From: an uncultured Clostridia bacterium
Lineage (GTDB): Bacteria; Bacillota; Clostridia; Oscillospirales; Ruminococcaceae
Assembly (NCBI GenBank): GCA_947629945.1
Contig: CANRFR010000017.1
Location: forward strand, 1-34,007
DNA length: 34,007 nt
Direction: 5' to 3'
In this document: piece by piece, positions 14,117-24,678 of the stretch
How the letters are laid out: every line of letters starts with the position of its first letter
How positions within the stretch are numbered: position 1 is the first letter of the stretch
Position numbers and translations under genes: made by a program
The notes under the pieces: model-generated
The model's input: the letters and a program-made list of their open reading frames with translations, nothing else
The model's database searches: none
What the model was told of the DNA's origin: nothing

Positions 14117-15082
14117 TTAATTTAAAAGTCCACTGCGCTTTTTCCGAAGTATCTCGTCGTTAAAAATGCCGCCGTCATACTGTTTTATCGCTTCCACGAT
14201 ATTCTCGAAAACGTCCTGCGGGATTTCCTCATAAGCGGCCATTTTCTCAAGCGCCGAAACAAATTTGTGACCGAGATACTCTGTGTCCTTAAAGCTTACG
14301 CGCATATTGACTCGTTCGCCCGTGTCTGCGTTCACAAGACATCGTATATCGTTGTCGAGAGTAGTCAGCAGCTTAGGCAGTGCCTGTTCGCCCGCTTGAA
14401 ATATGCGCGAACGGTAAACCGAAACTTTACCCAAGCTGTGAATGTCACATTCCGGAGGAAGATTATCGAACATAGTCATCAGCGCGAAAAGGTATTCCTC
14501 CAAGGAGCAGTACTTAACAGGCAGCCCCGCCGTAAGCGTAAGGCTGTCAACGTTCGCTGCCGTAAGCTTCAAAGCGCTGTCCAAAGCGGTTTTGTAAGTG
14601 TTTAACGGACACACGTCAACAGGCAGCGGCGCCAAATCGCACCGCAGCGCCATATACTTCGCGGCAACCTCGGACGCTCCCAGAAGCTCAAACTCCGACC
14701 GCACTCGAAAAGCCGCAACTTCGGCGTTGATACGGCTTTTCACAAACCGCAGCGCCCTGCCCATATTCCCCGAAATATACGGGGCTTCAAACATAACGGG
14801 CACGTTCGACGTTATTCTCTTGGCAAGATCTCCGTATGTAAGTATGATATACTTAAAGTCAAAGTATTCCGTAAGCTTTAAGAACATCGGATCCACCATT
14901 CGGAAAATGTAATTCACTCCCTCGGGGAGCCTGTGAAGCTTAAGCAAAGTGCGAAAATCGATCTCTATATACTTTACGCCGGTTTCCGAAAGCGCACATA
15001 TATAATTAAATATGTGGTTCGGATCCGCGTCATCCGCAAGAGGATAAGCACAAAGACTGTTATCTATCAAGACTGTTTTCAT
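14117..15082 (-). CDS. Divergent HMGL-like/LeuA-NifV-like TIM-barrel protein, probably non-catalytic
   Basis: N-terminus VLIDNSLCAYPLADDADPNHIFNYICALSETGVKYIEID and ...AGLPVKYCSLEEYLFALMTMF resemble the strand/helix framework of DRE-TIM synthases but lack the DxTLRDG-type motif. Confidence 0.45.
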   Translation of the reverse strand: MKTVLIDNSLCAYPLADDADPNHIFNYICALSETGVKYIEIDFRTLLKLHRLPEGVNYIFRMVDPMFLKLTEYFDFKYIILTYGDLAKRITSNVPVMFEAPYISGNMGRALRFVKSRINAEVAAFRVRSEFELLGASEVAAKYMALRCDLAPLPVDVCPLNTYKTALDSALKLTAANVDSLTLTAGLPVKYCSLEEYLFALMTMFDNLPPECDIHSLGKVSVYRSRIFQAGEQALPKLLTTLDNDIRCLVNADTGERVNMRVSFKDTEYLGHKFVSALEKMAAYEEIPQDVFENIVEAIKQYDGGIFNDEILRKKRSGLLN

Positions 15083-15125: not shown

Positions 15126-15764
15126 TCAGCAAATGCTAACGCCGTAAACGAAATTGGAAACATAATAATCGGAAGTGATATCCACTTCCCTAACGGAAGT
15201 GCCAACGGAAAGAGCCGCGACCATCTTGTTGTCGCCGATATAAATTCCCCCGAAATCCGCGTCCCCGCTTTCCCCAAAGAACACCAAATCTCCCTTTTTC
15301 AACGAACCTCTGTCAACGTGAGTCCCCATCTTCGACTGCAAAAGCGTTGTTCTCGGACAGGTTATATAACCGTTTTCACGCAGAACATAGTAGATAAATC
15401 CCGAATTGTCAAAACCGCCGGGCGATTCTCCGTTTTCGGAAAACGGGGAACCGACAAGCGCGCTTGCCGATGAAGCAATCTTCTCGCCCATATTGTCGCC
15501 CGTATTCTCGGACGAACTTACCGGCTCGCTTTCATAGCTGTTTGAAACACTTTCCGAAACGCTTGACTCCTCGGGAACGCTCTGCGGTTCCGACAAATCA
15601 ATGACGCTCTCTTCCGGCTCGCTTATAACGATTTCGTTTGGCGCGGAAGAGTTGTCCGCTTCGATTCCGACGCCCCCGCCCGAACCTGTGATTAGCACGA
15701 CAGCGATAACTGTCAAAACCGCAAATATTACGATAGCAATTATTAAAAGATTGTTTTTATTCTT
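15126..15764 (-). CDS. Membrane-anchored NlpC/P60-like protein with degenerate catalytic triad
   Basis: N-terminal TM, Ser/Glu-rich linker, then ALVGSPFSENGESPGGFDNSGFIYYVLRENGYI..PRTTLLQSKMGTHVDRGSLKKGDLVFFGESGDADFGGIYIGDNKMVAALSVG. Confidence 0.85.
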   Translation of the reverse strand, partial: KNKNNLLIIAIVIFAVLTVIAVVLITGSGGGVGIEADNSSAPNEIVISEPEESVIDLSEPQSVPEESSVSESVSNSYESEPVSSSENTGDNMGEKIASSASALVGSPFSENGESPGGFDNSGFIYYVLRENGYITCPRTTLLQSKMGTHVDRGSLKKGDLVFFGESGDADFGGIYIGDNKMVAALSVGTSVREVDITSDYYVSNFVYGVSIC

Positions 15765-16045
15765 CATTCGAGCTCCTTTGAAAAGACCGCGTTCATTTGT
15801 AATAAGCACCGAAACGCCGGCGTTTTTAGATTCCGCGTCTTGCGTATTGCAAAAAGCGGTTAGGAACAGCGGTTTTTAGAGTACACCCCGTATAGTTATA
15901 ACGATTTCCAAATTATTTTGTGGATTGTAAGGATGTGGCTATATAAATATTATACAACATCTTCACTCAAAACGCAAACATAATATTTTAGCGTAAAATA
16001 ATGCATTTTAAAAACTTACGCTCAAAAAAGGCGAGACTTGCCGTA

Positions 16046-21948: not shown

Positions 21949-23217
21949 TTAACTCTTAAACCATCCGTCAATATTCGGGATGTCAAACCCGTAAAGCGTT
22001 CTATAAGGAAGAACACCATGCGCACCATTCTTTGGAATGATAAGTCCCACCATATTATATGTGAGCATCAAAGCAAAGACGAAAACATTAACACCCAAAA
22101 CGATTTTTCCAACCTTTCGATGAGCCCTCGTCTCTGCGTTAACAACTGCATTTTTTCTTTGCGCATTTGGATTTATTTCATTTAACTTTTTGTTTGCCTT
22201 ACTGATTTTCAATTCCAAAAGCTTTTCTTTGAACATAGATATAAACTCGGGAATTGCAATCAGCAAAAACGGCATCGTGTAATATGAAAAACGCTCAAAC
22301 AATGCGTGTTTTGTCATAACAATTTGCCAAAAGCCCATCATCAATATAAGATGAAGAAGCATATTCTGGTATTTCGTTAGCCTAAACCTCATCCAAAACG
22401 CTAAAGCAATCATCGCTACACAAATCACAAGCATGAAAATCGCGTAAACATAGGATATCCCATATTTAATAAACCTTGAATCCGCGTATTCTTTGTGAAA
22501 ATGCGAAAGAACGACTTTAAGCACTGCGTCAGACGCTGCGAAATACACAATCAATCCAACAGCATATATCGGAAGCGTTTTCAAATTTAGCTTTATAAGC
22601 GAAACGAAAAGCACCGGTATCAAATATATCACCGGCAGATGGAACGTAGCCGCGACTCCGATAAGGAGAATAAACAGCCACATATCCTTGTTTTTCCACA
22701 GGTGTTTGTGTTCGCCCTCAATAAACCGCTTCATAGAGTCAAACGCAAAGCACATAATCGACATTGCGATACCCTGCCTTACATAATTCAGCGTGAGGTA
22801 AAACAAATACGTGTTCAGGAAAATGAACACTGACATAAACGGATTTTTTGAATGCCGCCACGTCATATACATCGGACCTACCAACGAAAGTGCCGCAGCA
22901 ATCGAAAACATTACCGAAGCTTTTTTCGTGAACAGCCCTATGAATTTATTAAGTAAAATATACCCGATCTCCCAATCCTCATATTTCAAATCGGAAAATC
23001 CCGTTTCAGCCATTTTGACGAAACCCTTGGCATACATATAGTAATCGGTTCCGATGTTATATCTCATCGACGACACGACCCAACATTGAACAAAGCAAAG
23101 TATAATGAAGAAAAATCTGTTCAGCTTTTCTTCGCGTTCAGTTCTTGAAGCGCCTTTTCTGCAAAACAAAAGCGCAAACACGCAGACAGCCAAAATATTC
23201 ACCAGATAAACAAACAT
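21949..23217 (-). CDS. EpsG family polysaccharide polymerase-like membrane protein
   Basis: Multi-TM; MRYNIGTDYYMYAKGFVKMAETGFSDLKYEDWEIGYILLNKFIGLFT...LNYVRQGIAMSIMCFAF typical of EpsG/Wzy-like proteins. Confidence 0.85.
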   Translation of the reverse strand: MFVYLVNILAVCVFALLFCRKGASRTEREEKLNRFFFIILCFVQCWVVSSMRYNIGTDYYMYAKGFVKMAETGFSDLKYEDWEIGYILLNKFIGLFTKKASVMFSIAAALSLVGPMYMTWRHSKNPFMSVFIFLNTYLFYLTLNYVRQGIAMSIMCFAFDSMKRFIEGEHKHLWKNKDMWLFILLIGVAATFHLPVIYLIPVLFVSLIKLNLKTLPIYAVGLIVYFAASDAVLKVVLSHFHKEYADSRFIKYGISYVYAIFMLVICVAMIALAFWMRFRLTKYQNMLLHLILMMGFWQIVMTKHALFERFSYYTMPFLLIAIPEFISMFKEKLLELKISKANKKLNEINPNAQRKNAVVNAETRAHRKVGKIVLGVNVFVFALMLTYNMVGLIIPKNGAHGVLPYRTLYGFDIPNIDGWFKS

Positions 23218-23505: not shown

Positions 23506-24579
23506 CTAAATTTGGTCGTATTTTAAACGTGTTACATTTTCCCGAAACGCGTTTTCCAGCCAATATCTTTCGGGCAGAGAACTACGGCGTTTCGTCGGCT
23601 CCGCGCACTCCATAAGCTCTGCCAACCTCTCAACGTCATTGTATGGGTAAACCTTACCCATATCCTCGGCGAGATCGTTATTTCCCTTAACATCACTGAC
23701 AATGATGTCCTCATGACAGTAAAGAGCCTCCAGCACATTGAACGGCAGACCCTCAAAACGGCTCGCCGAAATAAGACAGTCGCATGTCCTGTAAAGCAGA
23801 TTAACTTTTTTCGACTGTCCTAAGAAGACAAGTCTATCCCCGACTCCGCGCTCCCGAGCTTGTTGCCGGCATTGCTCCAAAAGATCGCCCTGTCCCGCAA
23901 ATACCATTCTATAGTCTGTTCTCTTCAATCTTGAACACGCCTCGATGATCGCCGACTGATTTTTCCGCGCGGAAAACTCCCCAACGCACAAAAACAACGT
24001 ATCGCCGTTATCCGCGCCCAGTTCCTTACGCTGAGCCGCCACATCGTTCTCCGAAACTTCCGGGAATTTTTTCGTGTCCAAGCCCATACCGTCAAGGAAT
24101 ACGATCTCGCGACCGAGCTTGTACTTTTGCGCGATCTCCAGATCTTCCCTGTTCATCACCGCAAGCAGCGCCGTACGCTTTCTGACAAGCTTTTCACACG
24201 CAAGATAAACGCGGCTTCGCTTGGAACCGTCGTCATTGAACAAATATCCGTGACAAATGTGTCTGCACTCGGCGCTTTTCACTCCCGAAACCTTCGCCGC
24301 CATTCTCCCCGCGATACCCGCCAGCGTGGAGTTGGTGTACACCGCGTCAAAACGCTCCTTTTTAATAAGAGAAGCCAATTTAAAGATCACCTTGATGTTA
24401 GCGGGCGAGGTTATTTTTTTCCGAAATCCCAGTTCTGTATGAACGACTCCCTCGTGCTCGAATACACCGTTCGCCGCCGTATAAACCTCAATGTCTTTTT
24501 TTAGCAGATACTCGATATACGGCACGTGAAAATTCCGAAAGTGCGAACTTTCGGACGCTACCATCAAAACTTTTTTCAT
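23506..24579 (-). CDS. Glycosyltransferase family 4 (GT-B)
   Basis: MKKVLMVASESSHFRNFHVPYIEYLLKKDIEVYTAANG...FLCVGEFSARKNQSAIIEACSRL...FLGQSKKVNLLYRTCDCLISASRFEGLPFNVLEAL. Confidence 0.9.
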   Translation of the reverse strand: MKKVLMVASESSHFRNFHVPYIEYLLKKDIEVYTAANGVFEHEGVVHTELGFRKKITSPANIKVIFKLASLIKKERFDAVYTNSTLAGIAGRMAAKVSGVKSAECRHICHGYLFNDDGSKRSRVYLACEKLVRKRTALLAVMNREDLEIAQKYKLGREIVFLDGMGLDTKKFPEVSENDVAAQRKELGADNGDTLFLCVGEFSARKNQSAIIEACSRLKRTDYRMVFAGQGDLLEQCRQQARERGVGDRLVFLGQSKKVNLLYRTCDCLISASRFEGLPFNVLEALYCHEDIIVSDVKGNNDLAEDMGKVYPYNDVERLAELMECAEPTKRRSSLPERYWLENAFRENVTRLKYDQI

Positions 24580-24678
24580 AACTCCTCCGATTAAAGAACA
24601 GGGACGCGGGTAAACACTCACGTCCCTACATTATTATAATAGCTGTCAAAAAGCGTTAATATAACAGCTGTAAAAACT

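Follow-up and report, generated by a model that had tools for sequence, protein, structure and literature searches.

Locus and protein layout

The window analysed here is a stretch of 34,007 nucleotides from an uncultured Clostridia bacterium of the Ruminococcaceae (assembly GCA_947629945.1, contig CANRFR010000017.1). On its minus strand, we detected a gene for a 213-amino-acid NlpC/P60 protein without the catalytic triad (15126-15767; identified from the open reading frame, its translation and a profile match). The ATG start codon (15767-15765) lies behind a ribosome-binding site, AAAGGAG (15779-15773). An earlier sequence-only reading had placed the gene at 15126-15764; the open reading frame is indeed intact and on the minus strand, and its start is three bases further out.

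The protein begins with a hydrophobic helix (residues about 7-27; 15687-15749, minus strand) that is predicted to act as a membrane anchor, in line with the membrane tether proposed earlier. An acidic linker rich in Ser, Glu and Pro follows (residues about 28-95; 15483-15686, minus strand), and the NlpC/P60 domain, delimited by its PF00877 match and an AlphaFold model, occupies residues 106-206 (15150-15452, minus strand).

Fold and catalytic positions

Residues 106-206 match positions 1-100 of the 105-position PF00877 profile with 60.7 bits (curated cut-off 23). The AlphaFold model, built on an alignment of 40 relatives, has a mean pLDDT of 95.9 and a pTM of 0.90, and its TM scores to solved members of the family are 0.77-0.90. 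Score and model both place the protein in the fold family, and the scaffold is kept, as had been claimed from the sequence. The best PDB match of the model in Foldseek is the catalytic domain of the Clostridioides difficile autolysin Acd24020 (PDB 7cfl, TM 0.90).

Alignment to relatives that keep the Cys-His-His triad (C-H-H) puts Asn121 (codon AAT, 15405-15407) at the catalytic Cys position, Phe172 (15252-15254) at that of the first His and Ala184 (codon GCG, 15216-15218) at that of the second His, all on the minus strand. The spacing of 121-172-184 (51 and 12 residues) is the same as that of 68-119-131 in Spr. The claim that all three triad positions are replaced at the Spr spacing therefore holds in the alignment with Spr, 7cfl and the C-H-H relatives; the codon positions given for Asn121 and Phe172 were correct, and the one for Ala184 was off by one base. 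Neither this alignment nor the confident AlphaFold model places a Cys or a His elsewhere in the catalytic site. With Asn, Phe and Ala at these positions, the window protein lacks the catalytic Cys and His that characterise C40 cysteine peptidases.

Comparison with characterised NlpC/P60 proteins

To our knowledge, few NlpC/P60 domains have been recognised as catalytically dead, RipD being the chief case, and we found no relevant literature on degenerate NlpC/P60 proteins in Firmicutes. RipD of Mycobacterium tuberculosis (Rv1566c; PDB 4jxb and 4lj1) has Ala83, Ser132 and Glu144 at the catalytic positions, is non-catalytic and binds peptidoglycan (PMC12067865). It shares with the window protein the NlpC/P60 fold (TM 0.77 to the model) and the replacement of all three catalytic positions, but the replacing residues differ, the phylum is another one and the C-terminal pentapeptide repeats are a feature of RipD. 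The window protein scores 42.2 bits with the NCBIfam model of RipD (NF033743; cut-off 215), which places it outside that family. RipD is the closest protein in kind, and the window family is a separate family of Clostridia that, judging from the distance, likely arose independently.

The other proteins compared are active or of active type. Acd24020, the closest solved fold, aligns with the window protein over the whole domain at 38% identity, but keeps the Cys, the His and a Tyr-x-Trp pocket. MepS/Spr of Escherichia coli (PDB 2k1g) resembles the window protein in its fold, its single domain, its envelope anchor and the spacing of the three positions, whereas it is an active Cys68-His119-His131 enzyme.

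Orthologues, selection and distribution

Whole-genome searches, which are free of motif bias, located 39 orthologues in the window's genus. Cys and both His are absent in all 39; 38 of these were read with a regular expression, and the one that the expression missed (G015) is N-F-A in the alignment. Because none of the 39 has the Cys or either His, chance or sequencing error as the source of the missing triad is excluded. Relatives were drawn from 61 genomes and from genome contigs, with part of the contig loci found by peptide patterns including FDNSGFIY and hence biased toward such sequences. Among the 99 relatives aligned, C-H-H occurs in seven distantly related outsiders; the rest, some of them present twice, have neither the Cys nor either His, as is the case for all family members read. 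The triad positions show the patterns N-F-A, N-F-Y, N-F-S, S-F-G and a few more. The S-F-G pattern, in which Ser replaces Asn121 and the third residue is Gly, marks a sub-clade (L021, L023, L025, L027, L029 and L145; G002 and G005).

Across orthologues, the Asn121 codon is AAT or AAC and that of Phe172 TTC or TTT, a silent drift under which the residues are held. dN/dS of the nearest pairs is about 0.03-0.2, and selection on the gene is purifying. The catalytic residues have been lost and kept lost over evolution, as in non-catalytic NlpC/P60 proteins, while the fold has been kept under selection. The loss of all catalytic residues could also mark a decaying, functionless remnant, but the gene is intact and present in nearly all genomes of the genus, its dN/dS is well below 1 and one pattern is common to five families; we regard this explanation as refuted for practical purposes.

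In a tree of 92 domains, which has few columns and no known root, one branch splits 75 triad-less domains from 17 that keep Cys and the first His (support 99/96, present in 98% of bootstraps). The triad was probably lost once. Orthologues, selection, model and tree all back the pseudo-peptidase proposed in the sequence-only reading, and the refuting case named there, orthologues that keep C-H-H, did not arise. Within the order, triad-less members occur in five families (f1, f4, f14, f17 and f20), and active-type NlpC/P60 proteins in others. We also surveyed genomes with a strict DNA motif, which passes over variants in codons or residues: 14 of 394 genomes of the order contained members, and among 399 genomes of the phylum only the window matched. 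As far as this motif sees, the family looks restricted to one order of Clostridia.

PF00877 matches were found in 41 of the 43 genomes of the genus, mostly one each, and in two of the 41 (G008 and G011) the match is a different protein. In the window genome (97.75% complete), the triad-less protein is the single match. The protein is unlikely to serve as a decoy for an active NlpC/P60 paralogue, because the PF00877 search found none in this genome.

The remodelled groove

The S1 and S2 sites of this fold are defined by the complex of Bacillus cereus YkfC (PDB 3h41), in which four residues, Tyr226, Trp228, Asp237 and Ser239, predict binding of L-Ala-gamma-D-Glu (PMC2954226). YkfC has the same fold as the window protein but is active. 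In the alignment from which we read the pocket, the window protein keeps the Asp and the Ser, and has Phe109 for Tyr226 and Glu111 for Trp228. Since two of the four residues are changed, canonical muropeptide binding is not to be assumed, and with the S1 site half kept, ordinary stem-peptide binding would not be assured. Among 67 family sequences, Asp120, Ser122 and Arg139 (YkfC Asp237, Ser239 and Arg255) are invariant. The equivalent of Tyr226 is Phe in 60 of them and that of Trp228 Glu or Asp in 48, while at the equivalent of YkfC Ser257, 37 have Thr or Ala and 30 a bulky Ile, Val or Leu. The stretch FDNSGFIYYV is specific to the family and near-invariant: Tyr126 is present in 67/67 and Tyr127 in 66/67 members, at positions where the compared enzymes vary. 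This pattern would look like a groove that is kept and re-purposed; it does not by itself tell the ligand.

The strong conservation of FDNSGFIYYV, together with a Cys before Pro-Arg in 57 of the 67 sequences, could also point to an enzyme that uses other groove residues for a different chemistry. We looked for a replacement catalytic Cys or His in the family and found no invariant Cys and no conserved His. The other ten sequences and relatives from other families lack the Cys before Pro-Arg, the window protein has Ala in place of Cys185, and Asn121 itself is replaced by Ser in the S-F-G sub-clade, all of which makes a different chemistry quite improbable.

Gene neighbourhood, promoter and possible partners

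The common gene order in the genus is HAD, FapA, the triad-less gene, a gene for a 321-amino-acid protein, a Cof phosphatase and a CNNM/CBS protein. Searches of Pfam, NCBIfam and PDB returned no match for the 321-amino-acid protein (14117-15082, minus strand), which adjoins the triad-less gene in much of the genus. At the six loci of the S-F-G sub-clade whose neighbours were read, a HAD gene lies directly upstream and no FapA match was found. At 22 loci of a sister lineage (genus g28, belonging to the same family, where relationships could be assigned), ypeB stands immediately before the triad-less gene; in a third set of seven loci, the gene before it is one of glycoside hydrolase family 2. 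The neighbours vary by lineage, with no single partner common to all contexts.

The ypeB-adjacent loci, together with SleB in 12 of the 13 such genomes searched and SpoIVA in the window's genus (16/16 genomes), raise the possibility of a dead partner that works with YpeB in spore germination or cortex handling and steers a cortex hydrolase. However, the window's genus keeps the gene while YpeB is absent from all 31 genomes searched, and is therefore not needed for the function of the gene there; SleB above the cut-off was found in none of ten genomes of the genus. FapA or glycoside hydrolase family 2 genes stand upstream in other lineages. We discarded YpeB and SleB as required partners in the window's genus. 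If this genus sporulates, cortex lysis needs enzymes other than YpeB and above-cut-off SleB.

Upstream of the window gene, we found a candidate sigma-A-type promoter, TTGCGT-17-TATAAT (15949-15977, minus strand), with a good -10 box and a poor -35 box; it is weak by consensus, and the motifs of relatives are stronger. Sigma-A-type motifs occur in 30 of 64 upstream regions (3.8 expected) and are frequent both with and without ypeB. A sporulation promoter was also considered and rejected: no sigma-G or sigma-E motif was found upstream, sigma-G, sigma-E and sigma-K did not rise above shuffled sequences, and sigma-F reached 2/74 with a shuffle maximum of 2. The upstream motifs suggest expression in growing cells and, with the genomes that lack YpeB, leave a role beside YpeB unlikely.

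The genomes also encode other types of wall hydrolase: M23 was found in 11/11 genomes examined and CHAP in six, the window genome included. These might serve as clients of a regulatory protein, but no link between them and the triad-less protein was found. Such possible clients, the change of half of the muropeptide S1 residues and the near-invariant helix residues Tyr126 and Tyr127 would suit a protein that binds a protein partner and no wall ligand, with the groove as docking site. Against this stand the invariance of the peptide-site residues Asp120, Ser122 and Arg139 and the lack of a partner gene common to all contexts, so that we hold a purely protein-binding role to be possible, if somewhat doubtful.

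Proposed role

Taken together, the evidence points, with a probability of about 0.6, to an old, order-level Clostridia family of non-catalytic NlpC/P60 proteins that serve as an extracytoplasmic wall-binding or regulatory module. The N-terminal helix would anchor the protein in the membrane and the acidic linker would carry the domain outwards, to a presumably extracytoplasmic location. There, the NlpC/P60-folded domain, with no Cys in the site and no conserved His in the family, would be incapable of papain-like cutting, and its remodelled groove would most likely accommodate either a peptide of the cell wall or a protein partner, giving a putative wall-binding or regulatory role in growing cells. 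Peptidoglycan sensing or binding by such a triad-less protein, also suggested in the sequence-only reading, is plausible.

A more specific version of this wall-binding or regulatory role, in which a pseudo-peptidase family of single origin rebuilt its groove around Asn and two Tyr to recognise a novel ligand or partner in the envelope and in one genus is almost the only NlpC/P60 protein of the cell, is rather speculative.

The family has kept its fold under selection, has apparently lost the triad once and is usually the sole NlpC/P60 protein in the genus. Because the fold is kept, selected and mostly unaccompanied there, it offers a clean case for the role of this fold without cutting. Judged by a profile match alone, these proteins would pass for peptidases, which is misleading.

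Five distant triad-less relatives (L132, L184, L185, L186 and L188) start with a lipobox-like sequence (for example LTACGG) and not with a helix. Since the window protein has a helix and these relatives lipobox-like N termini, an envelope anchor appears to be kept by two means. Elsewhere in the window, a gene for an EpsG-family protein (21949-23217, minus strand) adjoins one for a glycosyltransferase (23506-24621, minus strand), and the two are probably exopolysaccharide genes.
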